Shown: piece after piece, positions 45,801 to 64,000 of the stretch
Numbering within the stretch: the stretch's first letter is position 1
Layout: every line of letters starts with the position of its first letter
NCBI GenBank assembly: GCA_003202005.1
Contig: QJJF01000001.1
Span: 465,099 to 529,098 of the forward strand
DNA length: 64,000 nt
Source: Williamsia faeni
Lineage (GTDB): Bacteria; Actinomycetota; Actinomycetes; Mycobacteriales; Mycobacteriaceae
Direction: 5' to 3'
Notes under the pieces: model-generated
The model's input: the letters and a program-made list of their open reading frames with translations, nothing else
The model's database searches: none
What the model was told of the DNA's origin: nothing
Program-made: the position numbers and the translations under genes

Positions 45801-46826
45801 TCAGCCCACCCGGACATAACCCAGGGCCTTGTCGACCTGATTCGCCGGCGCCTCACCCACTGAGTACTTGCGCAGATTCTCCAGGAACAGGTCGGCCAGC
45901 TCATCGCGCCAGCCGACGACGTCCCCGCTCATGTGGGCCGAGACGTGCACGTTCTCCATCTCCCACAGGGGGTTCACCTCGGGTAGCGGCTCGGTGTCGA
46001 ACACGTCCAGCGACGCCGCCGCGATGCTGCCGGCCCGCATGGCCGCGATGAGCGCGAGTTCGTCGATGAGTTGCCCCCGGCCGACGTTGATCAGGTGCGA
46101 CGTCGGTTTCATCGCAGCCAGGACCTCGGCGCTGATGAGTCCGGTCGTCTTCTCGGTCAGGGGCGCAATCGTGATCACGTCGTCGAACCGGCTCACATAT
46201 CCGGCCAGGTCATCGGTGGCCAGGACGGTCCCGAAGTCCGGATCACCGGTTCGTTCGGTTCGGCCGGCACCGGTCACCTGCAGGCCGGCGGCGCGGAGCA
46301 ACCGGGCCACCTCCCGGCCGATCCCACCGGTACCGATCACCAGTGCGCTGCGGCCGGCGGTCCGGATGGTGTCGCGCCGTTCCCAGCGCTTCTCGTGTTG
46401 CAGACGCTTTGACCGGTGGAACTGCTTGTCCTGCGCGATGATCGACCCCAGGACGAATTCGGCGATCGGCCCGTCGAACACCCCGTGGGCGTTGGTGACG
46501 GTGATCTCGGACGACCGGAGTTCGTCGAACAGTATCGCGTCGACGCCGGCGGCGCACACATGTACCCACCGCAAGGCCTTCGCCTGCGCCCAGTTGTCCC
46601 GCAGTGCGGCCGAAAAGTAGTCCCACAACATCAGGACATCGGCCCCCTGCCCGTCCGAGAGCGCAGCTCCCAGGCCGGCGGTGGTGCACAGACGCACCTC
46701 GGCGACCTCGCGGATCTGCGCCAGGTTCGCGGGTTCGTCCAGTTCGTCGCGTGTGAGGATCGCGACCACCGGCTGCCCGGAGGCGGAGCTTGACTCTGGA
46801 TCGGTGGTGTTCTGCCCAGTTCCCAT
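45801..46826 (-). CDS. D-2-hydroxyacid dehydrogenase, NAD-dependent
   Basis: 341 residues from ATG 46826. The cofactor fold is ALVIGTGGIGREVARLL; the catalytic Arg is in NVGRGQLID, the Glu in FDTEPLPE and the His in VSAHMSGD, so the Arg-Glu-His set is complete. It interconverts a 2-oxoacid and a D-2-hydroxyacid; the substrate is unknown. It is divergent from the aminotransferase gene, and a GntR-type palindrome lies in the 86-base gap, so it probably belongs to the catabolic island. The FAD oxidoreductase at 48183 could reoxidise its product. Confidence 0.87.
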   Translation of the reverse strand: MGTGQNTTDPESSSASGQPVVAILTRDELDEPANLAQIREVAEVRLCTTAGLGAALSDGQGADVLMLWDYFSAALRDNWAQAKALRWVHVCAAGVDAILFDELRSSEITVTNAHGVFDGPIAEFVLGSIIAQDKQFHRSKRLQHEKRWERRDTIRTAGRSALVIGTGGIGREVARLLRAAGLQVTGAGRTERTGDPDFGTVLATDDLAGYVSRFDDVITIAPLTEKTTGLISAEVLAAMKPTSHLINVGRGQLIDELALIAAMRAGSIAAASLDVFDTEPLPEVNPLWEMENVHVSAHMSGDVVGWRDELADLFLENLRKYSVGEAPANQVDKALGYVRVG

Positions 46827-46873
46827 GTAGCCACGGTAGGGCAGCGACGCGACAACCACGACCCAACTGTCTA

Positions 46874-46885
46874 ATTGTTGACAAT
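46874..46885. promoter_or_regulatory. candidate GntR operator in the divergent dehydrogenase / aminotransferase promoter
   Basis: ATTGTTGACAAT has perfect 5-base arms, ATTGT and ACAAT, around TG. The TTGTnnACAA core is typical for FadR/VanR-type GntR regulators. The same 12 bases recur at 60904-60915. The site contains TTGACA, a consensus -35 box for the rightward aminotransferase promoter, so binding should repress. The regulator at 58186-58974 is the obvious candidate. Confidence 0.65.
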
Positions 46886-46912
46886 CCTTCAATCCAGCGT
46901 CACGGTGTACCC

Positions 46913-48175
46913 ATGAGCCCCACCAAGCTGAGCCCCGCGCTGAAGCAAGCGACGCCGGTCGTCGTCGACCACGCCCAGGGATCGTGGATTCACGGCACCG
47001 ACGGCGTCGACTACCTCGACTTCACCACCGGCATCGGAGTCACCAGCACCGGTCACTGCCACCCCAAAGTGGTTGCGGCAGCGCAGGAACAATGCGGCAA
47101 GATCATCCACGCGCAGTACACGACCGTGATGCACAAGCCACTTCTCGAGCTCACCGAGAAACTCGGCGAGCACCTCCCCACCGGCCTGGATTCGGTGTTC
47201 TACGCAAACTCGGGGTCCGAGGCCGTCGAAGCCGCCGTGCGTCTGGCCCGCATGGCCACCGGTCGCCCCAACATCGTCGTCTTCCAGGGCGGTTTCCACG
47301 GACGCACCGTGGCCGCAGCCACGCTGACCACCGCCGGGACCCGGTTCTCCGCCGGTTTCTCGCCCCTGATGGACGGAGTTCACATGGCTCCGTTCCCGTA
47401 CGCCTACCGCTACGGCTGGGACGAGCAGACCGCCGTCGAATTCGCACTGCGTGAACTCGACTACCTGTTCGCCTCCCGGGTCGCCCCCAACGACACCGCC
47501 GCGTTCCTGATCGAGCCGGTCCTCGGCGACGGCGGATACCTGCCCACCGCACCGGCATTTCTCGCCGGTTTGCGCGAGCGCGCCGACAAGCACGGCATCA
47601 CCCTCATCCTCGACGAGGTGCAGGCCGGCGTCGGACGGACCGGGAAATTCTGGGGCCACCAGCACACCGACGGTCTGACCCCCGACATCCTGATCACCGC
47701 CAAGGGACTCGCTTCGGGTTTCCCGATCTCGGCGATCGCCGCCCCGGAGTCGATGATGGCCAAAGCCTGGCCCGGATCGCAGGGCGGCACGTACGGCGGC
47801 AACGCGGTCGCCGCCGCGGCCGGTGTCGCGACCCTCGAGGTGATCGCCGAAGAGAACCTGGTCGACAACGCCCGGATCCGCGGCAATCAGATGCTGCAGG
47901 GGCTGACCGAGGTCGCCCCGAAGTTCCGCCAGATCGGCAACGTCCGCGGACTCGGCCTGATGGCGGGCATCGAGTTCGTCGACGACGCCGGTGCGCCGGA
48001 TGCCGCTGCGGCCGCGGCGGTCCAGCAGGCGTGCATCCCAGAGCGCCTGCTCACCCTGACCTGCGGCCCGATGGGCAATGTCGTGCGTCTGATCCCCGCA
48101 CTCGTGGTCACCGAAGAAGAGATCGCCACCGGATTGAACCGGTTCGAATACGCGCTCACCGCGGCCCTTGGATAG
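46913..48175 (+). CDS. class III PLP-dependent aminotransferase (omega-amino acid type)
   Basis: 420 residues from ATG 46913. Family landmarks: NSGSEA at 99-104 (PLP phosphate), GGFHGRTVAAATLT, ILDEVQAGVGRTG (cofactor Asp234) and Lys264 in ITAKGLASGFPISAI. It resembles 4-aminobutyrate and 2,4-diaminobutyrate transaminases. With the downstream semialdehyde dehydrogenase it could convert an omega-amino acid to a semialdehyde and then an acid; in an ectoine-like pathway it would fill the DoeD role. The exact substrate is inference. It starts the rightward gene string of the island. Confidence 0.87.
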   Translation: MSPTKLSPALKQATPVVVDHAQGSWIHGTDGVDYLDFTTGIGVTSTGHCHPKVVAAAQEQCGKIIHAQYTTVMHKPLLELTEKLGEHLPTGLDSVFYANSGSEAVEAAVRLARMATGRPNIVVFQGGFHGRTVAAATLTTAGTRFSAGFSPLMDGVHMAPFPYAYRYGWDEQTAVEFALRELDYLFASRVAPNDTAAFLIEPVLGDGGYLPTAPAFLAGLRERADKHGITLILDEVQAGVGRTGKFWGHQHTDGLTPDILITAKGLASGFPISAIAAPESMMAKAWPGSQGGTYGGNAVAAAAGVATLEVIAEENLVDNARIRGNQMLQGLTEVAPKFRQIGNVRGLGLMAGIEFVDDAGAPDAAAAAAVQQACIPERLLTLTCGPMGNVVRLIPALVVTEEEIATGLNRFEYALTAALG

Positions 48176-48182
48176 TAGGGTC

Positions 48183-51164
48183 ATGGACCTGGCCCCATCG
48201 CCCAACGACATCTGCGATGAACTCACCGCCCTCGGCCTGAGCGCCGATGCCTCATCACGCCGTCGTACGGAATACGCGTACGACGCGTCGAACTACCGCC
48301 TGCCCCCACTTGTGGTGGTCTTCCCGCGCAGTGATGACGAGGTCGCAGCGGTAGCCGCCTACTGTCACCGCAATCACCTCACCCTGACCGCCCGTGGTGG
48401 CGGAACGGGCATGGGCGGCAACGCCATCGGCGCCGGCGTGATCCTCGATTTCTCCCGGTACATGAACCAGGTCCTGACGGTCGATGCTGAAGCGCGCACC
48501 GCCGTTGCCCAGGCCGGGATCGTCCTGACCGCCTTGCAGGGCAGGGTTCGCGGCGCCACCGACGGCTCGCTCACCTTCGCACCCGACCCATCGAGCCAGT
48601 CACGGGCCACGCTCGGCGGCGCCATCGCCAACGATGCCTGCGGCAATCACTCTGTCCGCCATGGCCGGACCACCGATCACGTCGAATCCCTGAACCTGGT
48701 CACGGCTGAAGGGCTGCTCTTGACGGCAACCCGGACCGGCCTGATCGCCACCGATCCGAACGACGCCGTCGCGGCCCGGCGAGCCGCCGATGTCTCCACC
48801 GGACTGAGCGAACTGACGGCGGCGCATCTGGGTGCCATCCGCACCGAGATGGAGCGCATACCACGCCAGGTCTCCGGCTACCACCTCGGTAAACTCCTGC
48901 CGGAGAACGGTTTCGATGTCGCCCGCGCCCTCGTCGGCACCGAGGGAACCTGCGCGATCGTGGTATCGGCGACCGTCCGGTTGGTCCCGTCGGCCACGCG
49001 CCCGCTGCTGCTCTGTCTGGGCTACCGGAATGTGGTCGATGCCGCTCGCGATGTCCCGACCCTCCTCGAGTTCGCCCCGTCTGCGATCGAAGGGATCGAC
49101 GAAAGGATCGTCGCGACCATGCGGGCCCGCCGCGGCGACGACTCGATCGCCGGACTACCGGCCGGAAATGCCTGGCTCTACGTCGATCTCGACGAAGAAA
49201 GTGTAGGCACTCCGGAGAAAGCCGCACTCGAACTGCTCGACAAACTCCGCGCCAACGGACGACTGGTCGACGGACGCACCGTTCCTGATCCGGAACAACG
49301 GGTCTCACTCTGGCGGATTCGTGAGGACGGCGCCGGTCTGTCGTCGCGGCTCGTCGACCCGGACGATGTCGCGCCTGAGGAAGGCGGACACGGCGGGTCG
49401 TACGAATCCTGGCCCGGCTGGGAGGATTCCGCCGTTGCACCGGAGAATCTGGCCGAATACCTCGAGGGCTTCGAGCAACTTCTCGACCAGCACGGATTGA
49501 CCGGTGTGATGTACGGCCACTTCGGTGCGGGCTGCATGCACGTACGCATCACCTTTGATCTCCGCAGCGACGAAGGCCGGGCAACCATGCGGCGCTTCTG
49601 CACCGATGCCGCAAAACTTGTTGTCGCGCATGGTGGCTCACTATCGGGCGAGCACGGTGACGGCCGGTCGCGTTCGGAGTTCCTGCCGATCATGTATTCC
49701 CCCGAAATCATCGGGGCGTTCGGCGACTTCAAAAAGATCTGGGATCCGGCCGGCATCCTCAATCCGGGCAGCATCGTCGACCCCGATCGGATCGACGACA
49801 ACCTCGCCCTCGCCGATGTACCGGCCCGGCTCTGGAAGACCACCTTCGACCTCGGGACACCCGGACTCGCCGATGGCGGCAAGCCCGGCCTCGACCCCTT
49901 TGTGCATGCGGTACAAGGATGTATCGGTGTCGGGAGGTGCCGGTCCGCGTCGGGCGGCGTGATGTGTCCGAGCTACCGGGCGACCGGAGACGAAAAGGAT
50001 TCCACGCGCGGCCGGGCCAGGGTTCTGCAGGAAATGGTCCGTACCGCACCGGACATCAAGGCGGGCTGGCGCGACACCGATTCCCGCGAAGCCCTCGATC
50101 TGTGCCTGTCGTGCAAGGCCTGTTCCACCGACTGCCCGGTCGGCGTCGACATGGCCACGTACAAGTCCGAGTTCTTCTCCAACTACTACCAGGGGCGCCT
50201 GCGGCCGCTGTCGCACTACTCACTGGGATGGATGCCGGCCTGGCTCAAGGCCGCTGCGCCCCTGGCACCGCTGATCAACAAATCGCTGTCCGGACCGCTG
50301 GCCCGGGTTGCCGCCAAGGCCGGCGGTCTCGACCCCCGGCGCACGATGCCGGCGTTTTCCACCCGGAAACAGGTGCGGGCGTCGATGTCCGGGCTCCGGA
50401 CCGACCCGTCCGCCGACACCGTCCTATTTGTCGATTCGTTCACCAAGGCATTCCGCCCGCAGGTCGCGGCTGCGACTGCGGGCGTGCTGGGCAGTGCCGG
50501 CCGGACGATCAGCTGCGAGTCGGACAACTGCTGCGGACTGACCTGGATTTCCACCGGTCAACTCGGTCGGGCGAAGAAGGTGCTGGAACGCACCGCAACC
50601 GCGCTCGACGACGGCACCGACCGACCTATTGTCGTTCCGGAGCCGAGTTGCGCTGCCGCCCTGCGTAAAGACCTACCCGAGCTCGTCCACACCGACGCCG
50701 CCAAGCGGGTCGCCGCCCGCGTCCGCAGCTTTGCCACCGAGGTCGGCCATCTCCTCGACAGTGGATGGCGGCCCCCGGTTCCGCTCCCCGCCGAGGTGAC
50801 CGTCCAGACCCATTGCCATGAATACGCGACCTTCGGGCCGAACACACAAGCGGCGGTGCTGCGCAGGCTCGGCGCAACCACCGTCCACCAGGCCGACGGT
50901 TGTTGCGGCGTCGCAGGCAATTTCGGTTTCGAGAAAGGTCACTACGACGTCAGCATGGGTGTTTCCGAGCAGGCCCTGGCCCCGGCCCTGCGGTCCCACG
51001 CCGACCACACGCCCGTGCTGACCGACGGATTCAGTTGCGCGATGGCGGTCCAGCATCTGGCCGCCACCGATGCGACCGTGCCCGATGTGCGCTCGGTACA
51101 TCTGGCCGAATTGCTCGACCCCGCATCGGCCGCAGCCATCGAGTCAGTGACAGAGCACGATTGA
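48183..51164 (+). CDS. FAD-linked oxidoreductase fused to iron-sulfur and CCG domains (GlcD-GlcF / D-lactate dehydrogenase type)
   Basis: 993 residues from ATG 48183. The N-terminal FAD-binding domain (about 35-225) contains RGGGTGMGGNAIGAG and is followed by the FAD-oxidase C domain with the flavin-site HGGSLSGEHGDGRSR near 480. Two Cys-rich 4Fe-4S motifs follow (CIGVGRC from about 580, and CLSCKACSTDCPVG from about 640), then two CCG domains (CCGLTW at about 782, CCGVAGNFGFE at about 906). Such fusions oxidise D-lactate, glycolate or D-2-hydroxyglutarate and feed electrons to the respiratory chain. It begins eight bases after the aminotransferase stop. Confidence 0.9.
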   Translation: MDLAPSPNDICDELTALGLSADASSRRRTEYAYDASNYRLPPLVVVFPRSDDEVAAVAAYCHRNHLTLTARGGGTGMGGNAIGAGVILDFSRYMNQVLTVDAEARTAVAQAGIVLTALQGRVRGATDGSLTFAPDPSSQSRATLGGAIANDACGNHSVRHGRTTDHVESLNLVTAEGLLLTATRTGLIATDPNDAVAARRAADVSTGLSELTAAHLGAIRTEMERIPRQVSGYHLGKLLPENGFDVARALVGTEGTCAIVVSATVRLVPSATRPLLLCLGYRNVVDAARDVPTLLEFAPSAIEGIDERIVATMRARRGDDSIAGLPAGNAWLYVDLDEESVGTPEKAALELLDKLRANGRLVDGRTVPDPEQRVSLWRIREDGAGLSSRLVDPDDVAPEEGGHGGSYESWPGWEDSAVAPENLAEYLEGFEQLLDQHGLTGVMYGHFGAGCMHVRITFDLRSDEGRATMRRFCTDAAKLVVAHGGSLSGEHGDGRSRSEFLPIMYSPEIIGAFGDFKKIWDPAGILNPGSIVDPDRIDDNLALADVPARLWKTTFDLGTPGLADGGKPGLDPFVHAVQGCIGVGRCRSASGGVMCPSYRATGDEKDSTRGRARVLQEMVRTAPDIKAGWRDTDSREALDLCLSCKACSTDCPVGVDMATYKSEFFSNYYQGRLRPLSHYSLGWMPAWLKAAAPLAPLINKSLSGPLARVAAKAGGLDPRRTMPAFSTRKQVRASMSGLRTDPSADTVLFVDSFTKAFRPQVAAATAGVLGSAGRTISCESDNCCGLTWISTGQLGRAKKVLERTATALDDGTDRPIVVPEPSCAAALRKDLPELVHTDAAKRVAARVRSFATEVGHLLDSGWRPPVPLPAEVTVQTHCHEYATFGPNTQAAVLRRLGATTVHQADGCCGVAGNFGFEKGHYDVSMGVSEQALAPALRSHADHTPVLTDGFSCAMAVQHLAATDATVPDVRSVHLAELLDPASAAAIESVTEHD

Positions 51165-51199
51165 AGACAGAGCACGATTGAAGACAGAGCACGATTGAA
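51149..51199 (+). repeat. three perfect 17-base tandem repeats at the end of the FAD oxidoreductase gene
   Basis: GACAGAGCACGATTGAA occurs three times head to tail (51149-51165, 51166-51182, 51183-51199). Because 17 is not a multiple of three, the TGA in each copy closes a different reading frame. The first TGA is the real stop of the preceding gene. A strong ribosome site (GGAGGT) for the dehydrogenase gene follows directly. Confidence 0.95.
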
Positions 51200-51211
51200 G
51201 GAGGTAGAGCA

Positions 51212-52732
51212 ATGACAGCATCTCCGGTCTTGAGCACGGACCGAAAGGCCATGGCGGCCGGTCTGATCGGATCGATTCCCACCGGTCTGTACATCGACGG
51301 CCAGTGGGCGCCGGCAGCGTCCGGTGCCACCTTCGATGTGGAGAACCCGGCCACCGGCCAGGTCATCGCGAAGGTCGCCAAGGGTGGCGCTACCGATGCC
51401 ACGGCAGCAATCAACAGCGCGGCCCGTCATCAGAAGGCCTGGGCCGCCACATCGCCCCGCGAACGCAGCGAGATACTGCGCCGCGCATATGAACTCATCC
51501 TCGACCGCCAGGACGACCTCGCCCTGATCATGACCACCGAGATGGGCAAGCCGCTGGCCGAGGCCAAGAGTGAAGTCGCCTATGCCGCCGAGTTCTTCCG
51601 CTGGTTCTCCGAAGAGGCCGTACGGATCAACGGCGACCACACCACCACCGGTGATGGCAAGAACCGGATCATCGTCACGAAAGAGCCGGTGGGTCCCTGC
51701 ATCCTGATCACGCCGTGGAACTTTCCGCTGGCGATGGGTACCCGCAAGATCGGTCCGGCGATCGCCGCGGGGTGCACGATGGTGTTCAAACCCGCCGAGC
51801 TGACACCGCTGACCGCCCTGGCCCTGACCGAGATCCTCACCATCGCGGGCCTGCCCGCGGGCGTACTCAACATAGTGACCACCGATGAGCCGGGTTCGGT
51901 CGTCGAGACGTGGATGGACAGCGGACTGGCCCGCAAGATCAGCTTCACCGGGTCGACTCAGGTCGGAAAGCTCTTGCTGGCCCAGGCATCTCGCAGTGTC
52001 ATGCGCACCTCGATGGAACTCGGCGGCAACGCACCGTTCATCGTCTGCGAAGACGCTGATCTCGACAAGGCCGTCGACGGCGCGATGGTCGCGAAGATGC
52101 GCAACATGGGCGAGGCCTGCACCGCGGCCAACCGACTGTTCGTGCACCGCAGCATTGCCGGCGAGTTCGCGAACCGGCTGGCCGAGCGGATGGGTTCGCT
52201 GCGGGTCGGCGACGGCACCGAAGACGGGACCGATGTCGGACCGCTGGTGGAACGCAAAGCAGTCGAGAAGGTCCGGGATCTCGTCGCCGATGCCGTCGAT
52301 CGCGGCGCCACGGTCGTCTGTGGCCAAGGGCCGGGCACCGCCGATTGCAACGCCGATGCCAGGGACACCGCCGGGTACTTCTATCTGCCGACGGTACTTT
52401 CGGATGTCGACGCCAAGTCCGACCTGATGGGCACCGAGATCTTCGGCCCGGTCGCACCGGTGATCCCCTACGACACCGAAGACGAGGTGCTCGACCTCGC
52501 CAACGACACCTCCTGGGGTCTGGTCGGATATCTGTTCACCCAGGACATCGACCGCGGTCTGCGGATGTCGGCGGCTCTGGAGGTCGGCATGGTCGGTCTC
52601 AACACCGGCCTGGTGTCCAATCCGGCGGCACCGTTCGGCGGTGTCAAGCAGTCGGGACTCGGCCGTGAGGGCGGCCGGGTCGGTATCGATGAGTTCCTCG
52701 AGATCAAGTACCTGGCGATTCCACGAACCTGA
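51212..52732 (+). CDS. NAD(P)-dependent semialdehyde dehydrogenase (succinate-semialdehyde dehydrogenase-like)
   Basis: 506 residues. Aldehyde dehydrogenase motifs: ITPWNFPLAM, the general base Glu269 in MELGGNAP, nucleophile Cys303 in GEACTAANR, FTGSTQVGK and PFGGVKQSGLGREGG. The GabD-like sequence points to succinate semialdehyde or a close relative such as aspartate semialdehyde. It probably takes the product of the class III aminotransferase; in an ectoine-type route it would be the DoeC step. GGAGGT lies seven bases before the ATG. Confidence 0.9.
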   Translation: MTASPVLSTDRKAMAAGLIGSIPTGLYIDGQWAPAASGATFDVENPATGQVIAKVAKGGATDATAAINSAARHQKAWAATSPRERSEILRRAYELILDRQDDLALIMTTEMGKPLAEAKSEVAYAAEFFRWFSEEAVRINGDHTTTGDGKNRIIVTKEPVGPCILITPWNFPLAMGTRKIGPAIAAGCTMVFKPAELTPLTALALTEILTIAGLPAGVLNIVTTDEPGSVVETWMDSGLARKISFTGSTQVGKLLLAQASRSVMRTSMELGGNAPFIVCEDADLDKAVDGAMVAKMRNMGEACTAANRLFVHRSIAGEFANRLAERMGSLRVGDGTEDGTDVGPLVERKAVEKVRDLVADAVDRGATVVCGQGPGTADCNADARDTAGYFYLPTVLSDVDAKSDLMGTEIFGPVAPVIPYDTEDEVLDLANDTSWGLVGYLFTQDIDRGLRMSAALEVGMVGLNTGLVSNPAAPFGGVKQSGLGREGGRVGIDEFLEIKYLAIPRT

Positions 52733-52789: not shown

Positions 52790-53989
52790 ATGTATCTCGG
52801 ATCCCAGTTGTTCAGTGACACCGAGTATCAGACTCGGCTCGCCGGAGTCCGTACCCTGATGGACCGTCAGGGGTTGTCGGCGATCATCGTGACCGACCCG
52901 GCGAACATCTTTTACCTCATCGGCTACAACGCCTGGTCGTTCTACACACCGCAGATGCTGTTCGTGCCGATGGACGGCGACATGGTGTTCTTCGCACGAG
53001 AGATGGACGCCCACGGTGCGCACCGCACCACCTGGTTGCCGCCCGAGCAGATCGTCGGATACCCGGAGAGCTACGTGCACCGGCCGCATGTCCACCCTTT
53101 CGACTGGGTGGCCTTTGCACTGCGCCAGCGTCACCTCATCGCGCCGGCGTCGCGGGGTGGGTCGGTGGGTCTGGAGATGGATTCGCACTTCTTCTCCCCC
53201 AAGGCATATCGGGCCCTGGTCAATGCGATACCCGAGTGGAAGCTCGTCGACTGCTTCGAACTCGTCAACTGGGTGCGGTCGGTCAAGTCCGTCGCGGAGG
53301 TCCAATTGATGCGGCAGGCGGGGATGGTCTGTTCGGAGGCGATGCGGGCGGCCATCGACACCATCGACATCGGTGTGCGCCAATGTGATGCGGCAGCAGC
53401 CATCTCGCAGGCGCAGATCACCGGTACCGACCAGTTCGGTGGCGATTATCCGGCGATCGTCCCGATGATGCCCACCGGCGAAGCTGCCGACACCCCGCAC
53501 CTGACCTGGAACCAGGGCACATTCGTCAGTGGGGAGGCGGTGGTCGTCGAACTGACCGGCGCCCACAACCGCTATCACTGCCCCTTGGCCCGCACCGTGG
53601 CACTCGGCCCGGTCAACAAGGATGTCGACTACGTCGCAGGTGCCACCGCCGAGGGTCTGAACAACGTCCTCGAGGCCATCGCGCCGGGGGTGGCCACCCG
53701 GGAGCTCGCCTCGACGTGGAACTGGACGCTCGCGAAGTACGGCCTCGAAAAGCATTCGCGGCTCGGCTATTCCATCGGCATCGGCTATCCGCCGGACTGG
53801 GGCGAGCGGACCATCAGCATCCGCACCGAGGACGAATCGATCCTCGAGGAGAACATGACCTTCCACATCGTGTGCGGCATGTGGATGGACGGTTACGGAT
53901 TCGAACTGTCCGAATCGGTACGCGTCAGCGCCACCGGTGTCGAAACATTCACCAGCTTCCCCCGAGAGCTCATCCGGAAGGCGAGCTGA
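52790..53989 (+). CDS. M24-fold hydrolase of the ectoine hydrolase (DoeA/EutD) type, metal ligands lost
   Basis: 399 residues, the same length as Halomonas DoeA as I recall it. The N-terminal creatinase-like domain has TDPANIFYLIGYNAWSFYTPQ and GGSVGLEMDSHFFS. In the pita-bread domain the five M24 metal ligands are replaced: the first Asp by Glu254 (VVVELTG), the second by Pro265 (YHCPLART), the His by a hydrophobic residue in YSIGIGYPPDWGER, the first Glu by Val361 (FHIVCGMW) and the last by Ser374 or Glu375. The GIGYPPDWGERTIS and ELSESV blocks match ectoine hydrolases, which are metal-independent with a catalytic Glu near 255. It would open a cyclic amidine or amide. It has a GGAGG ribosome site. 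Confidence 0.8.
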   Translation: MYLGSQLFSDTEYQTRLAGVRTLMDRQGLSAIIVTDPANIFYLIGYNAWSFYTPQMLFVPMDGDMVFFAREMDAHGAHRTTWLPPEQIVGYPESYVHRPHVHPFDWVAFALRQRHLIAPASRGGSVGLEMDSHFFSPKAYRALVNAIPEWKLVDCFELVNWVRSVKSVAEVQLMRQAGMVCSEAMRAAIDTIDIGVRQCDAAAAISQAQITGTDQFGGDYPAIVPMMPTGEAADTPHLTWNQGTFVSGEAVVVELTGAHNRYHCPLARTVALGPVNKDVDYVAGATAEGLNNVLEAIAPGVATRELASTWNWTLAKYGLEKHSRLGYSIGIGYPPDWGERTISIRTEDESILEENMTFHIVCGMWMDGYGFELSESVRVSATGVETFTSFPRELIRKAS

Positions 53990-56455: not shown

Positions 56456-56462
56456 CCAAGCA

Positions 56463-56630
56463 TCTTCGGCACGATCAACGGCATTTTCGGCACGCTCAAC
56501 GGATCCCCCCGTCGTCCCCGGACATCTTCGGCACGCTCAACGGCATTTTCGGCACGGTCAACGGATCCCACCGCCGAGCGTGCCGAAAACACCGTCGAGC
56601 GTGCCGAAAATGCCGCCGAGTGTGCCTTTG
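56463..56630. repeat. 21-base-period direct and inverted repeat array between convergent genes
   Basis: Four direct units of the type TTTTCGGCACGCTCAACGG start at 56463, 56484, 56525 and 56546. The first pair and the second pair are a 62-base tandem duplication. Three inverted units (GCCGAGCGTGCCGAAAA type) start at 56573, 56594 and 56615, exactly 21 bases apart. The inverted set can pair with any direct unit, giving alternative long hairpins. It fills the 185-base gap between the M20 gene and the convergent transporter gene, where a terminator is expected. Confidence 0.9.
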
Positions 56631-56640
56631 TTGCTGTGGC

Positions 56641-58032
56641 TCAGACGGTTTCGACGGCCCGCTTTCGCGCGACTTCGGCTTCCTCACCGGGAACACCGGT
56701 TCCGCGGATCGAACAGCCGGCCGTCTCCTTCAGGAACGGCAACGCGATCATTCCGACGACGCAGGCCAACATCATGTAGGCGGCAGGGAAGAGTTCCCAG
56801 CCCTTGTTGGCCGTCACCGCATCGTTGATCAGCGGCGCGGTACCACCGAAGGCCGCGGTCGCCACGTTGTACGAGATCGCGAATCCGGCATAGCGAACCT
56901 GGGTCGGGAACATCGCCGGGAACGTGGCCGAGATCGTGGACAGCTGTGGGATGTACAGCAGCCCCAGCACCAGGAAACCGATGATGGCCCAGGCGAATCC
57001 CTGACCCATCAGCCAGTACATCGGCAACGCGAACACGAACAACCCGATCAGGGAACCCCACCACATGGGCTTTCGCCCGATCTTGTCCGACCAGGCCCCG
57101 AAGAACGGAATGCAGACCATCATGGCCAGCTCACCGATCAGGATGACCATCGTGCCGGCCGTCTCGGACAAACCGATCGTGGTCTTCAGGTAGGTCGGCT
57201 GGTACGCGAGCAAGGTGTAGTTGGCCACGTTGAGCGCGATCACCAGACCGAACATCACCAGGATCGGATGCCAATAGTTCGTCAGCAGGTCCTTGAATGC
57301 CTGCCAGGCCGAACCCTCGATCTCTTTCTTCTGTTCCATCTCGGTGAACACCGGGGTGTCGTTCAACTGATTTCGCAAATACAGACCGATCAGGCCCAGC
57401 GGCATGGCACACAGGAACGGGATGCGCCAGCCCCAGGACTGCATCTGATCGTCGGTGAGGAACAGCTCCAGAACCAGCACAAACGCGGTTCCCATGACGA
57501 AGCCGGCGAGCGTGCCGAACTCCAGGAAGCTGCCGTACTTACCACGCTTCTTATCCGGCGCATACTCGGCCATAAAGGTTGCGGCACCGCCATATTCACC
57601 ACCCGTCGAGAATCCCTGGACCACGCGCAGTGAAATCAGCATGATCGGAGCCCATACACCCACCGCGGCGTGCGACGGCAGCAGACCGATCATGGCCGTG
57701 GCTCCCGAGATGAGCAGAATGGTCATGGCCAGCACAGCTTTTCGACCGATTCGATCACCGATCGGACCCCAGACCATGCCACCCAGAGGACGCAGTACAA
57801 ACGAGATGGCAAAACCGAGCATCGTGCCGATCGTGCCGAGGTCCCCGGGGAAGAACGTCTGGGTCAGATAGGTGGTGGTCGCGGCGTAGACGCCGTAGTC
57901 GTACCACTCGGTCGCATTGCCGATGGCCGATGCCCCGATTGCCTTGCGTAGGAGCTTCTTACCTTCAGGCGAATCCGGATCCGGAAAACCGGGCGGCACT
58001 TGGGAAGATGATTTCTTGATATCCGGGCTCAT
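56641..58032 (-). CDS. MFS transporter, metabolite:H+ symporter (ProP/ShiA-like) family
   Basis: 463 residues from ATG 58032 behind GAGGAGG. Twelve membrane helices with the family signatures: GNATEWYDYGVYAATTTYL, RPLGGMVWGPIGDRIGRKAVL and RVVQGFSTGGEYGGAATFMAE. Relatives import proline, betaine, ectoine, shikimate or citrate with protons. Its place between the M20 gene and the GntR gene makes it the likely uptake system for the island's substrate. A 153-base gap from the GntR stop may hold its own promoter; no copy of the shared palindrome is there. Confidence 0.88.
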   Translation of the reverse strand: MSPDIKKSSSQVPPGFPDPDSPEGKKLLRKAIGASAIGNATEWYDYGVYAATTTYLTQTFFPGDLGTIGTMLGFAISFVLRPLGGMVWGPIGDRIGRKAVLAMTILLISGATAMIGLLPSHAAVGVWAPIMLISLRVVQGFSTGGEYGGAATFMAEYAPDKKRGKYGSFLEFGTLAGFVMGTAFVLVLELFLTDDQMQSWGWRIPFLCAMPLGLIGLYLRNQLNDTPVFTEMEQKKEIEGSAWQAFKDLLTNYWHPILVMFGLVIALNVANYTLLAYQPTYLKTTIGLSETAGTMVILIGELAMMVCIPFFGAWSDKIGRKPMWWGSLIGLFVFALPMYWLMGQGFAWAIIGFLVLGLLYIPQLSTISATFPAMFPTQVRYAGFAISYNVATAAFGGTAPLINDAVTANKGWELFPAAYMMLACVVGMIALPFLKETAGCSIRGTGVPGEEAEVARKRAVETV

Positions 58033-58185: not shown

Positions 58186-58974
58186 TCAGGTCGGTGACCC
58201 GGGTAGCGGATTGACGGGCACGTCCGGACTCGGATCGATGTCCGTGCCCGGAAAATGCGACGCCACACCGGGTTCGGCGATGATCCGGCTCAGCCCGTCA
58301 CGCATGTGGCTGATCATGACCTCATCGGCACGTCTCATGTCGCGGGCTTCGATCGCATCGACGATCCGCCGGTGTTCGTCGATCCGTTCCTCTGACGACA
58401 CATAGGTTCCGCGCATCGCACCGAGGCACATCCTGGTTTCGACCAGGATCGTTTCGTGGAGTCGAGACAGTCGCGGGCTGCCGGACAGCTCGACGAGTGT
58501 GTGGTGAAAGGCCATGTCCGCGTCGGCAATCTGTGGTCCGTTCGGATCGTCCGCAAATCGTTCCATGTCGGCCACACAATCGGAGAGGACTGCGGCCGCT
58601 TCATCCGGGGTTCGCAGGATCACCTGCTCGAGGGCGGCTCGTTCGACCGCTGTCCGGGCGACGTACATGTCACGGATGTCGTCATCGTCCATGGTGATCA
58701 CGAAGAGTCCACGGTTGCGGTGACTGACGAGCAGGCCTTCTTGGGTGAGCCGCTGCATGGCTTCGCGAAGTGGGCCGCGACTGACACCGAGTTCGGCTGC
58801 GAGTCCGGATTCGGTGAGCTGGCAGCCCGGCGGAAAGTCCCCGCCGGCGATGGCGTTACGCAACTGCCGAGCGATGATCGCCGGAGTCGATTCCTGGATC
58901 AGCGGCTCGAGGACCCTGGATCGCGATAAGCGTTTTCCGGACGACACCGCAGGTTTTGTGGGCTCCAGCATCAT
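58186..58974 (-). CDS. GntR-family regulator, FadR/FCD subfamily
   Basis: 262 residues. The N-terminal winged helix (IIARQLRNAIAGGDFPPGCQLTE, then LAAELGVSRGPLREAMQRLTQEGLL) is followed by an all-helical FCD domain with the metal-binding pattern (DADMAFHHTLVELSG and DEHRRIVDAIEARD...HM). FCD regulators respond to small carboxylates. It is coupled to DUF3830 (ATGA). The palindromes at 46874 and 60904 fit the TTGTnnACAA sites of this subfamily, so it probably represses both divergent promoters until an intermediate binds. Confidence 0.9.
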   Translation of the reverse strand: MMLEPTKPAVSSGKRLSRSRVLEPLIQESTPAIIARQLRNAIAGGDFPPGCQLTESGLAAELGVSRGPLREAMQRLTQEGLLVSHRNRGLFVITMDDDDIRDMYVARTAVERAALEQVILRTPDEAAAVLSDCVADMERFADDPNGPQIADADMAFHHTLVELSGSPRLSRLHETILVETRMCLGAMRGTYVSSEERIDEHRRIVDAIEARDMRRADEVMISHMRDGLSRIIAEPGVASHFPGTDIDPSPDVPVNPLPGSPT

Positions 58975-59468
58975 TCCACCCTCTGATAAGTCAGTGTTTC
59001 ACCGCGAGCGCCGCCCATCCAGACATCATTGCAGGCGGCGGCGAGCTCCCCGAGGCCCTCCTCGATCGTCGCGAAGACATTGCCCGGCACCCATCCGACG
59101 TCGCCGTTGACCAGCAGGTTGTTGCGGCCGTAGAACACCGCGAGATCGATCAGCAATTTGTTCTCGCGGGCCGCGCTGTCGGATTCATATCCGTAGGCCG
59201 TATTTTCCAGCGTGCCGTCGAAGGTGAAGTAGCAGAGGTCGCCCGGTATGGGTGTGACAGTGGTGTTCTCGGGCCCCGGTTCGGTTGCGGCAAATGCCGG
59301 CACCAGTGTGTAGATCTCGTTGCGCGCGAACTTCCCGTGGTACACCTGACCACCCTGCGGCAGAGCTTTCCAGACCGCGTCGGCGGTGCGGGGTGCCTCG
59401 TCGTCGAGCAACCGCGCGACAGCGCTGACGCCGCGGCTTTCCAGGGTGATCCGCAGGTATCTACTCAC
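58971..59468 (-). CDS. DUF3830 protein, cyclophilin-like fold
   Basis: 165 residues from GTG 59468, which overlaps the amidase stop by eight bases; GGAGG lies upstream. The N-terminal block VSAVARLLDDEAPRTADAVWKALP and the middle TPIPGDLCYFTF match DUF3830. This small cyclophilin-like family has no proven function and commonly travels with amidase, M24/M20 and racemase-like genes in catabolic loci. Coupling to the amidase on one side and GntR on the other suggests it acts on, binds or channels the same substrate. Confidence 0.8.
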   Translation of the reverse strand: MSRYLRITLESRGVSAVARLLDDEAPRTADAVWKALPQGGQVYHGKFARNEIYTLVPAFAATEPGPENTTVTPIPGDLCYFTFDGTLENTAYGYESDSAARENKLLIDLAVFYGRNNLLVNGDVGWVPGNVFATIEEGLGELAAACNDVWMGGARGETLTYQRVE

Positions 59469-60858
59469 GTTCGGACCCACCTCCCCAGCTCTTTTCAAAT
59501 GCATTGGCAACCTGCAGGACTCGCTGATCACCATGCCGCTGTCCGACGATCTGCACACCGATGGGCAGGCCGTCGACGAAGCCGCAGGGCACGGTGATCG
59601 CGGGCTGTTGGGTCAGGTTGAACGGGTAGGTGTACGGCGTCCAACTCGTCCAATCCGGATCTGGACTACCGGGCGGCACATCCAACCCCGCCGCGAAGGC
59701 GACATCGGGCATGGCCGGGGTGATCAGGACGTCGTAGTCCTGATGCAGCAGTCCCATCTTGCGACCGAGATCCATCCGTACGGTGGTGGCATCGATGTAG
59801 TCGCCCGACGAGTAGTTCGAGTGTCGCGACAACGCTTGCACCAGAGAGGGATCCACCTTCGCCTCGGCCCCGTCGCCATATGCGGCGACCACCACGGCGG
59901 CGCCACTGAACCACAGGACGTGGTACGCCCAGACCGGATCCTCGAGCGACAAGTCGATCTCCTCGACGGTGGCACCGAGACCCGAGAACACGTCGAGGGT
60001 GCTGCGGACTCCTCGTTCGACGTCGGGATTGTTGGTCCCGAAGCCCAGGTTCGGACTGAACGCGATGCGCAGGCCGTCGAGGGATTCACTGCTGAGGTCG
60101 ATGGGTTCGGTCGCGGCGAGCGCCGACCAGTCCCGGACATCGAAGCCGCTGATCACGTCGAGCATCGCCGCGACATCTGCAACACTGCGGCCCAGCGGGC
60201 CCACATGCGCGAGGGTTCCGAACGGGCTCGCCGGATAGATCGGCACCCGGCCATACGTGGGTTTGAAACCGACGATGCCGCAGAACGCTGCCGGGATCCG
60301 GATGGAGCCGCCCCCGTCGGTTCCGACCGACAACACGCTCAGTCCGGCTGCGACGGCGGCCGCGCTGCCGCCGCTCGATCCCCCGGATGTGCGTTCGAGG
60401 TTCCAGGGATTGCGGGTGATGCCATACGCGGGGCTGTCCGTGACGCCCTTCCATCCGAACTCGGGCGTGGTGACCTTGCCCAGGATGACCGCGCCGGCCT
60501 CCCGCAACCGGGCGACAGCGGGCGAATCCTCGGGCCAGGGTTGATCCGGGTTGATCAATTCCGATCCACGCAACGTGGGTCTCCCCGCGGTCAGGAGCAG
60601 ATCCTTGATCGTGACCGGCACCCCGTCGAGCGGCCCCAGCGGCGTTCGGCGTCGGTGGCGCTGTGCGGAAAGCTCAGCGTCTCGTTCGGCCGAATCAGCC
60701 CAGACCTGCGTGAACGCGTTGATCGACGGGTTGAGACCTTCGATCGCGTCGAGTGTTTCCGCGGTCACGTCGATCGGCGACACGTCACCGGAGGAATAGC
60801 GAACCTGCAGGTCAGTGGCGCCGAGCCCGCGAAGTGTCGAGTTCAGTCGCATGTCCAC
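59461..60858 (-). CDS. amidase signature enzyme of the catabolic island
   Basis: 465 residues. The triad is complete: Lys85 (VPVTIKDLLL), cis-Ser161 (TSGGSSGGSAAA) and nucleophile Ser185 (TDGGGSIRIPA), with the usual 24-residue spacing. It is the first gene of the amidase-DUF3830-GntR operon, and its start lies 45 bases from the GntR-type palindrome. It would hydrolyse a carboxamide or an N-acyl bond of the island's substrate or of a ring-opened product. The true substrate cannot be read from sequence. Confidence 0.9.
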   Translation of the reverse strand: MDMRLNSTLRGLGATDLQVRYSSGDVSPIDVTAETLDAIEGLNPSINAFTQVWADSAERDAELSAQRHRRRTPLGPLDGVPVTIKDLLLTAGRPTLRGSELINPDQPWPEDSPAVARLREAGAVILGKVTTPEFGWKGVTDSPAYGITRNPWNLERTSGGSSGGSAAAVAAGLSVLSVGTDGGGSIRIPAAFCGIVGFKPTYGRVPIYPASPFGTLAHVGPLGRSVADVAAMLDVISGFDVRDWSALAATEPIDLSSESLDGLRIAFSPNLGFGTNNPDVERGVRSTLDVFSGLGATVEEIDLSLEDPVWAYHVLWFSGAAVVVAAYGDGAEAKVDPSLVQALSRHSNYSSGDYIDATTVRMDLGRKMGLLHQDYDVLITPAMPDVAFAAGLDVPPGSPDPDWTSWTPYTYPFNLTQQPAITVPCGFVDGLPIGVQIVGQRHGDQRVLQVANAFEKSWGGGSERE

Positions 60859-60903: not shown

Positions 60904-60915
60904 ATTGTTGACAAT
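60904..60915. promoter_or_regulatory. candidate GntR operator between the amidase and isomerase-like genes
   Basis: ATTGTTGACAAT is identical over 12 bases to the site at 46874-46885. It lies 45 bases upstream of the amidase ATG and 88 bases upstream of the 61003 gene, in an AT-richer patch. TTGACA within it can serve as a -35 box rightward and TTGTCA leftward, so one bound dimer could block both promoters. Confidence 0.65.
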
Positions 60916-61002: not shown

Positions 61003-61719
61003 ATGGTCACCACCGTTGCCATGCTGTACCCCGGCCACGCCGCCGAGGACGACTACGCGCTGCTGCAGCGCATCCTTGGCGACGACATCGCGCTCCCCGT
61101 GGTGATCACCAGCGTTGGTGTCGACGCCCACGAGGTGGACGCCCTACTCGACCTCGGCCGTAGCGAACGCCTCCTCGAGGGCGCCCGACAGGTCGCGCAG
61201 TACCGGCCCGATTCAGTCATGTGGGCATGTACATCGGGCAGCTTTGTCTTCGGCTGGGATGGCGCTCACCAACAGGCCGGCGAGATCAGCGAAAACCTGA
61301 GTCTGCCAACGGGTTCAACGTCCATCGCATTTGCCGCCGCCTGCCGGGCGCTGCGACTCCATCAAGTTGCGGTCGCTGCCACCTATCCCGACGACGTCTC
61401 GCGGCACTTCTCGAAGTTCCTTGCCACAGCGGGTGTCACCGTGAGCGAGCTGGTCTCACACGACATCCCCACCGCCGCATTGGCCGGCGAACTCGGTCAT
61501 GACGAGGTGCTGGAATTGGCGCACAGCAACGACTCCGACGACGCCGAGGCCATCCTGATCCCCGACACCGCGCTGCACACCGTCGCCTGGATCGAAGAAC
61601 TGGAGCAGGCCCTGGGTAAACCTGTACTGACGGCCAACCAGGTGACCGCCTGGTACGGGCTGCGCCTGGCCGGCAAGCAGGTCACCAACGATCGCCTCGG
61701 AACATTGTTTCGGCAGTAG
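61003..61719 (+). CDS. EutA / maleate isomerase-like protein of the Asp/Glu racemase superfamily, single-cysteine variant
   Basis: 238 residues. The N-terminal VAMLYPGHAAEDDY and the first active-site block WACTSGSFVFG (Cys76) fit the Asp/Glu racemase - maleate isomerase - arylmalonate decarboxylase superfamily. The second active-site Cys is absent: the equivalent loop reads LIPDTALHT (Asp188-Thr189), followed by the family's GKPVLTANQVTAW. EutA of ectoine clusters is of this superfamily. With one Cys, a decarboxylase- or isomerase-like reaction is more likely than racemisation. The GntR-type palindrome upstream places it in the regulon. Confidence 0.8.
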   Translation: MVTTVAMLYPGHAAEDDYALLQRILGDDIALPVVITSVGVDAHEVDALLDLGRSERLLEGARQVAQYRPDSVMWACTSGSFVFGWDGAHQQAGEISENLSLPTGSTSIAFAAACRALRLHQVAVAATYPDDVSRHFSKFLATAGVTVSELVSHDIPTAALAGELGHDEVLELAHSNDSDDAEAILIPDTALHTVAWIEELEQALGKPVLTANQVTAWYGLRLAGKQVTNDRLGTLFRQ

Positions 61720-61725
61720 GTGAGC

Positions 61726-62112
61726 TCAGGCGTCGGCCACGACTTTCAGGCCGATCGTCCCGTTCTTGCCGCGCCGCAGCAAGCTGCCTTTCACGGTCAG
61801 CCAGCCCATGATCCCGTACTTCTTGATGATCACCTCGCGTGCGTGATCGGTCCCCTCGGAGTCCAACACGGTTGCGGTTCCTTTGACCGGTGGGCCGAAC
61901 GTCTGCTTACCTCGCATGTCGCAGGCCTGCACGATCACGGCCGTGTTCCGGCGCAGCCGTTTGACCTTCCACGAATCGGAGACTGTCCACATCAGCAACG
62001 CCTCACCATCGAGGGCTGCCCAGATCGGCGTTGCCACCGGGGTGCCGTCCTTGCGAAAAGTCGTCAGCCGCACGTACTTTGCGGTACCTGCTTGTCCAAA
62101 CGGCGCGGTCAT
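61726..62112 (-). CDS. PPOX-class F420-dependent oxidoreductase
   Basis: 128 residues from Met 62112; a Met five codons upstream is possible. Split-barrel flavin/F420 fold: YVRLTTFRKDGTPVATPIWAALD, then LLMWTVSDSWKVKRLRRNTAVIVQACDMRG and the C-terminal IGLKV strand. Mycobacterial relatives reduce small substrates with F420H2 or bind biliverdin-type ligands. It is convergent with the isomerase-like gene, and nothing shows that it belongs to the island's pathway. Confidence 0.82.
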   Translation of the reverse strand: MTAPFGQAGTAKYVRLTTFRKDGTPVATPIWAALDGEALLMWTVSDSWKVKRLRRNTAVIVQACDMRGKQTFGPPVKGTATVLDSEGTDHAREVIIKKYGIMGWLTVKGSLLRRGKNGTIGLKVVADA

Positions 62113-62194
62113 CGAAAACCCTCTCATCGTGGACTCGTGGCCTTGATGCTACGCATTCAACAGGCGACATGACGCACGCCGATAGGATTTCCCA

Positions 62195-63440
62195 GTGGTC
62201 AGACCGATAGAGGGACAGCCGAACGCTCGAGAACCAGACGCTACGACCCGCACGAACGGCGGAGCGTTCGGCGGCGGTATCGCCATTCCGATGTTCCTGG
62301 CGCTGGTCCTGTTGTCCGCAACCGCCCCGCTCGCGACCGATTTGTACCTGCCGGGCCTGCCCACCGTCGCCGATTCCCTCGGCACCACCAACGTGGCCAC
62401 CCAGCTGACCTTGACCACGTTCATGTTCGGTATGGGAGTCGGCCAGCTGTTGACCGGCGCCCTCTCCGACGGTTGGGGCAGGCGGCGACTACTGATCGGC
62501 GGGACGATCGCCTTCGTCGTCGCGAGCGTTCTGTGCGCGCTCGCTCCCTCGATCGCCGTATTGATTGCTGCCCGACTCTTGCAGGGATTCGCCGGCGGGA
62601 TGGGAATCGTGTTGTCCCGGGCGGTCATCTCCGATCGTGCCCGCGGCGACAACGCAGCGCGACTGTTCAGCTTGATGATGCTCGTGGGCGCCACCGCACC
62701 TGTCGTCGCGCCCATCCTGGGTGGCGTCCTCCTGAGCCCGATCGGATGGCGAGGCATCTTCTGGGTGCTGGCCGGCATCGGCGCCGTCATGCTCCTCGGT
62801 GTTCTGACCGTGATTCCAGAGACACTGCCGAAAGAAAGACGACACGGCATCAGTCTCACGAGGCTCGCCGCCAATTTCGGAAAAGTCCTGCGCAACCGCA
62901 GATTTGTGGCCTACACGGCCACCCTGGCTCTCTCTTTCGGTGTGATGTTCTCGTACATTTCGGCATCACCCTTCGTGGTGCAGGAGATCTTCGGCTTCTC
63001 CGCCTCCCAGTTCTCGATCGTGTTCGCGGTCAACTCTGTCGGACTGGTCCTGGCCAGCGCGATAAATGCGCGTCTGATCGGCCGGGTGCAAGTCCGCAGT
63101 CTTCTGAGATTCGGCCTGATCCTGATCAGCAGCTCGAGTGTCGTCCTACTCGTCCTGGGCCGTGAGCACGCCGGACTCGACGTGGCTGTTCTTGCCTTTC
63201 CTGTTCGTCACGGTGCTCGGAATGGGTTTCACCATGGGCAATTCGGTCGCCCTGGCAATCGACCAGGCTCACGAGGTCGCCGGCACCGGCTCGGCCTTGA
63301 TCGGGGCGTCACAGTTCACCCTCGCGGCCGTCGTGTCACCCCTCGTCGGGATCGGCGGCGAGAGCACATCGGTACCGATGGCACTCACGATGACGATCTG
63401 CGCGGTACTTGCCGCTGCCGCGTTCTTGCGATCCAAGTAG
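62195..63440 (+). pseudogene. Bcr/CflA-type drug-resistance MFS transporter, frameshifted near 63170-63190
   Basis: The first frame (from 62195) gives helices 1-10 with TDLYLPGLP, GQLLTGALSDGWGRRRLL and RLLQGFAGGMGIVLSRAVI, typical of Bcr/CflA exporters. Around GREHAGLD the homology jumps by +1 into a second frame, which supplies TWLFLPFLFVTVLGMGFTMGN and the last two helices to 63440. The first frame runs on without homology to 63499, overlapping the next gene. One extra base (or two missing) at about 63165-63185 explains this. It is either a real inactivating frameshift or a sequencing error; both halves are otherwise well preserved. Confidence 0.8.
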
Positions 63441-63447
63441 GCGCGAG

Positions 63448-64000
63448 TCAGGCGACGCGGCCGAACAGCGACTGCGCAGCGCAGGGTTCGGCCGTGTAGT
63501 CCGCCACTCCGGCGTCCTGCAAGGTGGCCCAGGCGGTCACCTGGTTTGCCGATAGAACAGGCTTCCCGAGTTCCTTCTCGAGAACCGAAAGAATGTCGTA
63601 GGTAGGCAGATTGGTGCACGACACGAAAATCGCGTCGGCATCGGGCGAGTCCGCGGCCCGGATCAGATCGGCGGTGGCGCTGTACGGAATGGTCCAGATG
63701 TCGTGGTCGTAACCCAATCCGGCCTGCGAGACCACGGCCCGGCCGGCCTCGGCCAGGAAGTCGCAGAGCAAGTCGGTCAGCGATGCCACATACGGGGTGG
63801 CAACCGCGATCCGGCGCAGGTTCATCGCGTCCAGCGCCCGCAGTAGCGCTTCCGACGTGGTGATCGCGGCCGGGGCGCCGGCGCCTCGCATACAGTCCGA
63901 CAACGCGGTGGCACCGGCGAGACCGTGAACAAAACTGCCGGAGGCGCAGGCGTATCCGACGGCTGCGGGCCGGACGCCCAGCACACTGCGCACGGCATCG
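63448..64000 (-). CDS. EutA / maleate isomerase-like protein, two-cysteine form (5' end beyond window)
   Basis: At least 183 codons are visible and the frame stays open to the window edge; the missing N-terminus would be about 60 residues. Both active-site cysteines of the Asp/Glu racemase superfamily are present: YACASGSFVHG and VSCTNLPTYD, followed by ELGKPVLSANQVTAWATL. The CTNLPTYD block is typical for EutA-like and maleate isomerase proteins. It is a paralogue of the 61003 gene but keeps the full cysteine pair. It is convergent with the frameshifted transporter. Confidence 0.85.
   Translation of the reverse strand, partial: DAVRSVLGVRPAAVGYACASGSFVHGLAGATALSDCMRGAGAPAAITTSEALLRALDAMNLRRIAVATPYVASLTDLLCDFLAEAGRAVVSQAGLGYDHDIWTIPYSATADLIRAADSPDADAIFVSCTNLPTYDILSVLEKELGKPVLSANQVTAWATLQDAGVADYTAEPCAAQSLFGRVA

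Follow-up and report, generated by a model that had tools for sequence, protein, structure and literature searches.

Ectoine breakdown as worked out in Proteobacteria is encoded by the eutABCDE-ssd-atf and doeABCD clusters, which comprise a DoeA-type hydrolase, a deacylase, a class-III aminotransferase, a dehydrogenase of the succinate-semialdehyde dehydrogenase (SSADH) type, EutA-like proteins, and an Ehu-type importer. Ectoine is a nitrogen-rich stress solute and also a nutrient. A 2018 review restricted ectoine consumers to Proteobacteria (PMC5924519), and the consumers behind 363 eutD/eutE pairs reported in 2021 were likewise all Proteobacteria (PMC8739950). A paper of April 2026 (PMC13188858) lists putative ectoine clusters in Bacillota, Thermodesulfobacteriota, Actinomycetota, and Archaea, which its authors term provisional, and cites an earlier marine-genome study suggesting a wider spread. 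Here, we analyze a 64,000-nucleotide (nt) stretch of the genome of Williamsia faeni, a soil-type actinobacterium (hereafter, the window; positions 465099–529098 of contig C1 in a genome of 5.52 Mb and 44 contigs), which carries a gene island parallel to these clusters.

We consider it about 70% probable that the island is a single ectoine-catabolism regulon in which an M20-family protein acts as the deacylase, whatever the order of the lower steps. It is probably a regulon with a DoeA-like ring hydrolase (M24) under the control of a GntR/FCD protein, and the chemistry of its lower pathway may not be the known one. The island shares with the proteobacterial clusters all of the classes named above except the Ehu-type importer, which is found in some relatives. 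It differs in having M20 in place of DoeB/EutE and GntR/FCD in place of EnuR, in lacking EutB and EutC in the loci searched, in an aminotransferase (AT3) unlike DoeD, and in the addition of a second aminotransferase (AT1), an FAD/Fe-S oxidoreductase, an amidase, and a DUF3830 protein. A 2-hydroxyacid dehydrogenase (HDH), present here, occurs in only some proteobacterial clusters. AT3 and the aldehyde dehydrogenase (ALDH) also resemble the GabT-GabD pair of γ-aminobutyrate (GABA)/SSADH degradation; in contrast to that pair, they are embedded in an ectoine-type regulon.

The provisional clusters of PMC13188858 are similar in that they are eutE-less and contain a divergent EutD; those of Bacillota carry an amidohydrolase gene, abgB, a pairing also found on a Priestia plasmid. 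They differ in having been found with EutD and EutB queries, and the sections of that paper on these clusters describe no operator, no D-hydroxyacid branch, and no role for M20. Its main text does not mention Williamsia, Gordonia, Arthrobacter, Brevibacterium, or M20. Actinomycete ectoine clusters have thus already been proposed provisionally; as far as the two accounts were compared, the proposed role of M20, the operator, and the possible D-malate branch appear to be new here. Our literature search returned no paper on DUF3830, alone or with ectoine, and none pairing ectoine with amino-2-hydroxybutyrate.

Gene classes were called by domain scans with Pfam and NCBIfam models, the latter with curated cut-offs; start codons within open reading frames are our choice. 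The island consists of the following features.

45801 to 46826, minus strand: HDH, D-isomer-specific 2-hydroxyacid dehydrogenase (PF02826, 151 bits; NF041369, 205.5 bits, below the cut-off of 400)
46874 to 46885, no strand: operator ATTGTTGACAAT in the HDH/AT3 divergent promoter, one of two exact genome copies
46913 to 48175, plus strand: AT3, class-III aminotransferase with GABA-aminotransferase-type residues (PF00202, 382 bits; nearest solved structure Escherichia coli GabT, 283 bits)
48168 to 51164, plus strand: FAD/Fe-S oxidoreductase of the D-2-hydroxyacid dehydrogenase (YdiJ/GlcD) type by domain scan (NF049975, 419 bits, below the cut-off of 1350)
51212 to 52732, plus strand: ALDH of the succinate-semialdehyde/DoeC type (TIGR01780, 583 bits, below the cut-off of 646; 47% identity to Leisingera DoeC)
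52790 to 53989, plus strand: M24, predicted DoeA/EutD-like ectoine ring hydrolase (TIGR02993, 409.5 bits, below the cut-off of 613; 348.7 bits to DoeA chain 6twk)
54030 to 55286, plus strand: AT1, class-I fold aminotransferase with no helix-turn-helix domain matched (PF00155, 110 bits; no GntR domain)
55283 to 56455, plus strand: M20 (ArgE/DapE family) deacylase, proposed replacement of DoeB/EutE (TIGR01910, 235.1 bits, above the cut-off of 217.6)
56641 to 58032, minus strand: ProP-type major facilitator superfamily (MFS) symporter (NF007927, 387 bits, below the cut-off of 544)
58186 to 58974, minus strand: GntR/FCD regulator, proposed operator binder (PF07729 and PF00392; its presence in loci tracks the operator)
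58971 to ~59504, minus strand: DUF3830 protein (PF12903, 213 bits; solved homologue 3kop, 261 bits)
59461 to 60852, minus strand: amidase (NF004815, 648.6 bits, above the cut-off of 506)
60904 to 60915, no strand: operator ATTGTTGACAAT in the amidase/EutA1 divergent promoter, second of two exact genome copies
61003 to 61719, plus strand: EutA1, EutA/arylmalonate-decarboxylase-like (PF17645, 74 bits; TIGR02990, 84.7 bits, cut-off 318)
63448 to ~64221, minus strand, crossing the window end at 64000: EutA2, second EutA-like gene (49% identity to Glaciibacter EutA2; TIGR02990, 95.9 bits, cut-off 318)

Every enzyme class that the initial annotation had listed for the island is present, both of its EutA-superfamily proteins included, the second of which extends beyond the window. 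AT1, located between M24 and M20, had gone unmentioned. The nearest relatives of AT1 in the Protein Data Bank are PH0207 and the 2-aminoadipate transaminase 2egy, and its sequence contains FSKILAPGWRVGW, which we take to be the usual lysine motif of class-I aminotransferases.

A shared operator and a recurring gene set

The 12-bp inverted repeat ATTGTTGACAAT occurs exactly twice in the 5.52-Mb genome, each time in a divergent promoter of the island, while a backward control gave no sites. Its core 10-mer TTGTTGACAA is not a rare sequence in the genome as a whole (8 sites versus 9 in the backward control). Since uniqueness to the island holds for the 12-mer only, the case for an operator rests on the 12-mer, the position of the sites, and their conserved flanks. 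When the window and 58 related loci were searched (59 sequences, 1.19 Mb), the core TTGT(TG/CA)ACAA was found at 101 sites, 97 of them no more than 200 bp upstream of the start of an island gene; the expected number was 0.42 under an order-1 Markov model and ~2 when estimated from the density of the 10-mer in the W. faeni genome. The bases flanking the searched core were A before it at 100 of the 101 sites, T after it at 99, and then C at 86. In several families, this one operator precedes every module whatever their order, and a single switch apparently governs the genes of the island.

The site and the GntR gene were found together in 37 sequences and were both missing from 12; 9 sequences had the site only, with GntR absent within the stretch covered, and 1 had GntR only (Fisher p = 2.8e-6, not corrected for relatedness). 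The correlation is thus imperfect. We infer that the GntR/FCD protein binds the operator; it would act as a repressor at ATTGTTGACAAT(C) in both divergent promoters. No EnuR (MocR) regulator was found at the locus, which alone was searched for it, and the regulator there is the GntR/FCD protein. AT1 was also considered as an EnuR-type regulator and rejected: Pfam detects no GntR domain in it, and the 25 NCBIfam matches shown all begin past residue 60. Its match to the EhuR model (119.5 bits; cut-off 480) lies within the aminotransferase part.

To count the island genes, we used the 58 loci, leaving out L086 to L089 and L091 to L111 (other phyla) and L022 to L031 (genomes already represented by other rows, or not closely related); we chose the identity thresholds ourselves, and the counts refer to loci, not genomes. 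M24 was present in 58, M20 in 54, AT1 in 52, HDH in 44, AT3 and FAD/Fe-S in 42 each, ALDH in 41, ProP in 39, GntR in 37, DUF3830 in 26, amidase in 23, EutA1 in 21, and EutA2 in 10. The set recurs, in differing orders, in Williamsia, Gordonia, Arthrobacter, Glaciibacter, Homoserinimonas, and Cryobacterium, in line with the co-conservation that the initial annotation had proposed to check. Fifty of the loci span 18 kb or more. Of these, 39 carry both AT1 and HDH, 5 carry AT1 without HDH, none carries HDH without AT1, and 6 carry neither gene, and the counts for AT1 and FAD/Fe-S were the same; HDH was therefore present in 39 of 44 loci with AT1 versus 0 of 6 without it. DUF3830 and the amidase were both present in 22 of these loci, both absent from 26, and DUF3830 stood alone in 2.

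A fortuitous neighborhood, in which an M24 peptidase, an amidase locus, and a GABA-type cluster lie side by side without forming one system, would fit the variation of gene order and strand between families (e.g., Arthrobacter L062 versus Glaciibacter L071) and the absence of DUF3830 and the amidase from about half of the larger loci. We regard it as very improbable given the one operator found upstream of all modules across families. Since the gene set recurs in different orders and the two promoters hold the only ATTGTTGACAAT copies of the genome, the island is more than a chance assembly. A regulatory context is thereby also provided for DUF3830.

The M24 protein and the substrate

The best NCBIfam match of M24 is the DoeA model TIGR02993; the best model beyond the two DoeA models scores 67.0 bits. 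Since the equivalog cut-off is missed, we call the protein DoeA-like rather than DoeA. Among solved structures, it comes closest to two DoeA chains (348.7 and 348.5 bits). A prolidase or creatinase assignment was rejected, the best prolidase scoring 73.5 bits and the best creatinase 34.1, with differing residues as well. An alignment of 3 DoeA proteins and 7 actinobacterial ones has 90 positions that are invariant in these ten, of which 46 are absent from the generic M24 rows, where one of three is misframed. E254, P265, and Y327 of the family correspond to D, D, and H in the two well-framed generic rows; the latter residues are presumably metal ligands. In a quick tree, the actinobacterial M24 clade and the proteobacterial DoeA clade (support of 100 each) both fall within the DoeA-like part, while the two usable generic rows stand apart on long branches; the outgroup row L013_out is misframed and its placement meaningless, and L116 and L137 form long branches. 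By bit scores, residues, and tree, M24 thus belongs with the ectoine hydrolases rather than the prolidases or creatinases, the outcome on which the initial annotation had made its ectoine proposal depend.

M24 is present in all nine genomes of the genus that were searched (W. faeni and eight congeners), at 408 to 417 bits to the ectoine-hydrolase model, and at E ≤ 1e-80 in 6 of 394 genomes evenly sampled from the class. M24 loci at 95 to 96% identity are Williamsia-titled, bar one. That record, titled Kitasatospora arboriphila NRRL B-24581 (L036), carries a Williamsia-type island with a 95% identical M24, and its title is probably wrong.

The substrate is indicated by the importer genes of relatives. 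In the Glaciibacter island (L071), EhuB (258.4 bits, cut-off 190.9), EhuC (229.7, cut-off 196.95), EhuD (246.7, cut-off 205.2), and EhuA (365.9, cut-off 345.4) all exceed the ectoine cut-offs, and here and in Homoserinimonas (L073) the operator is located between EutA1 and EhuB. EhuA, EhuC, and EhuD homologues were found in 5 of the 50 loci that span 18 kb or more. An operator common to EhuBCDA and the island genes in two relatives favors ectoine or hydroxyectoine over the other compounds that the initial annotation had left open, and it makes the claim of actinobacterial ectoine use directly testable. The island is very likely devoted to ectoine or hydroxyectoine catabolism, as judged from genomic evidence, and 5-hydroxyectoine would probably be covered by the same regulon. 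In W. faeni itself, where no EhuB match was found at E ≤ 1e-30 and no Ehu gene in the locus, the importer is presumably ProP, with EhuABCD taking this role in some relatives.

The regulon might instead serve another natural cyclic amidine or N-acyl diamino acid, M24 being a DoeA relative with a changed substrate. The shortfall of ~200 bits from the DoeA equivalog cut-off is compatible with this, as is a second DoeA relative that may act on a different compound. The latter (43 to 44% identity) adjoins an M20/amidohydrolase gene on Shinella plasmids L113, L117, and L118, two of which also carry an EutA-like gene, an arginase, and an ornithine cyclodeaminase. We nevertheless find such a change of substrate unlikely for the island, where M24 retains the DoeA-type residues and the EhuBCDA genes of relatives stand under the same operator. 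In other phyla, too, M24 relatives with M20 adjoin EutB or UehA-like genes: several Thermodesulfobacteriota loci combine an M24 relative and M20 with UehA-like TRAP (tripartite ATP-independent periplasmic) genes and EutB, and one cluster on a Priestia plasmid contains an M24 relative, eutB, a cyclodeaminase, M20, a homoserine dehydrogenase, and an aldehyde dehydrogenase.

Several observations weigh against assigning the island to ectoine. EhuB-type proteins exceed their cut-off in 64 of the 394 class genomes, and M24 is present in 6 of the 394; three of these six have an EhuB-type match, two over the cut-off, and none of the matches adjoins M24. EhuB presence was therefore rejected as proof of ectoine catabolism in itself, being too common in the class. 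The W. faeni genome lacks the Ehu match described above, M24 falls below the equivalog cut-off, and both EutA1 and EutA2 are far below that of TIGR02990. Last, most of the loci come from Gordonia (19) or Williamsia (13), and counts over them are therefore not independent.

The deacylase and the lower pathway

The W. faeni genome and those of eight congeners contain no match to DoeB (TIGR02994), and across 31 genomes there was one, at 86.6 bits versus a cut-off of 402.7. None of the 58 actinobacterial loci contains EutB, EutC, DoeB, or DoeD at the chosen identity thresholds, EutB and EutC having been searched in the loci only. M20 is present in 54 of these loci. The initial annotation had pointed out both the M20 protein in place of the usual deacylase and the missing EutB and EutC, and both points hold. 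In Gordonia jinhuaensis, HDH, M24, and AT1 lie together and M20 is near a ProP gene on another contig. AbgB of the Bacillota clusters presumably also belongs to the M20 family. Overall, M20 is a frequent, non-universal partner of DoeA-like proteins in clusters without visible DoeB; in two Brevibacterium genomes that carry M24, no M20 was found at E ≤ 1e-40. In the proposed pathway, M24 would open the ectoine ring to yield an acetyl-diaminobutyrate, and M20 would take over the role that DoeB/EutE has in Proteobacteria.

AT3 has the GabT residues I50, R141, and R398, as do five actinobacterial orthologues and the L102 protein; at these positions and at E211 two DoeD-type enzymes have L, S, T, and G (in the order I50, R141, E211, R398) and W. 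faeni EctB has A, M, E, and K. AT3 is 29% identical to Leisingera DoeD and scores 337.5 bits to TIGR00700 (cut-off 506.65). With GabT-type residues, AT3 looks less suited to diaminobutyrate than to a compound resembling GABA, such as 4-amino-2-hydroxybutyrate. The ectoine-type reading of the initial annotation is well supported, but the endpoint of the pathway may not be aspartate.

AT1, HDH, and FAD/Fe-S together point to a transamination, after which a D-2-hydroxy acid would be formed by reduction and reoxidized at a later step. AT1 would remove the α-amino group of diaminobutyrate, or of γ-acetyl-diaminobutyrate ahead of M20, and HDH would reduce the resulting 2-oxo acid to the D-2-hydroxy acid. 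AT3 would then transaminate 4-amino-2-hydroxybutyrate, a GABA analogue, ALDH would oxidize malic semialdehyde to malate, and the FAD/Fe-S enzyme would convert D-malate to oxaloacetate. For this order of the lower steps we would give somewhat less than even odds. More tentative is a fuller version with a second chemical logic, in which carbon enters as D-malate, possibly via γ-acetyl-diaminobutyrate, and the amidase, DUF3830, and the two EutA proteins form a hydroxyectoine branch replacing EutABC. In any case, these four genes would make up a sub-module, optional within the regulon and perhaps serving hydroxyectoine. If the ring were opened to γ- and not α-acetyl-diaminobutyrate, this would explain why the deacylase is of another family and why AT1 lies between M24 and M20.

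Related combinations are found outside the class: AT3 (56%) and HDH (42%) relatives neighbor M24 in a Desulfuromonadales metagenome-assembled genome, and on a plasmid of the haloarchaeon Natrialba magadii (L116) an M24 relative lies beside a glutamate dehydrogenase, with FAD/Fe-S, a D-2-hydroxyacid dehydrogenase, M20, and a class-III aminotransferase within 11 kb. EctA, EctB, and EctC all exceed their cut-offs on another contig of the W. faeni genome, which is thus a predicted ectoine maker as well. If true, the D-malate route would bypass aspartate semialdehyde, the precursor for ectoine synthesis by EctABC in the same cell, and would be an alternative route from diaminobutyrate to the tricarboxylic acid cycle.

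The lower steps could also keep to the classical order, with other enzymes in the same places: M24 and M20 would yield diaminobutyrate, AT3 aspartate semialdehyde, and ALDH aspartate, with AT1 as an aspartate aminotransferase and HDH and FAD/Fe-S serving only hydroxyectoine-derived acids. This possibility, which overlaps with a single M20-based ectoine regulon, we rate as doubtful without dismissing it. The 47% identity of ALDH to DoeC speaks for it, as does the hydroxyacid dehydrogenase gene of undefined role in proteobacterial ectoine clusters (PMC5924519, legend to Figure 6). The low identity of AT3 to DoeD and its GABA-aminotransferase residues, unlike those of DoeD-type enzymes and EctB, argue against it, and HDH and FAD/Fe-S are retained in loci without the amidase/DUF3830/EutA sub-module.

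Several findings in turn weaken the case for the D-malate order. GabT E211 is Asp in AT3 and its five orthologues, but not in the L102 protein. In Kocuria and Curtobacterium S6, the M24-AT1-M20 locus contains neither HDH nor FAD/Fe-S, and a search of their genomes at E ≤ 1e-60 found no FAD/Fe-S either; the loci hold a short-chain dehydrogenase/reductase (SDR), alanine dehydrogenase, ALDH, and a class-III aminotransferase other than AT3, which would suit the classical order. Arthrobacter H14 has, in the same genome as L072, a second cluster (L157) of AT1-M24-ALDH-AT3 with alanine dehydrogenase, GntR, and ProP, and no M20, HDH, or FAD/Fe-S was found in this stretch. FAD/Fe-S was also not found in G294. 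In the five genomes whose M24 locus lacks AT1 (two of them Brevibacterium), an AT1 relative is encoded elsewhere at 59 to 61% identity in three, at 35% in one, and not at all in one, and a FAD/Fe-S relative (44 to 47%) elsewhere in four. A D-malate dehydrogenase was considered as a partner of AT1 clusters lacking FAD/Fe-S and rejected: Pfam found none among seven flanking proteins of L136 and L085.

The neighbors of unlinked AT1 genes in two genomes gave no clue to a pathway. In G249 (L156, G249:C16), the unlinked AT1 relative occupies the chromosomal slot in which Brevibacterium sandarakinum (L078) has M24. The slot is shared by a tRNA synthetase, YibE, a lactate-permease-like gene, Dus, and an HD protein, a hint that AT1 and M24 were once neighbors there.

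Other features of the window

A Bcr/CflA-type MFS gene (62195 to 63499) has a family match that ends at about residue 335. The gene may be broken, since the remainder of its frame looks unrelated. Three perfect 17-nt tandem copies (ACAGAGCACGATTGAAG) at 51150 to 51200 span the FAD/Fe-S stop codon and the gap before ALDH. The gap between the convergent M20 and ProP genes (56456 to 56640) is packed with ~21-bp repeats (TTTTCGGCACG-CTCAACGG-like) and long inverted repeats, which are perhaps a terminator or a dispersed intergenic element.

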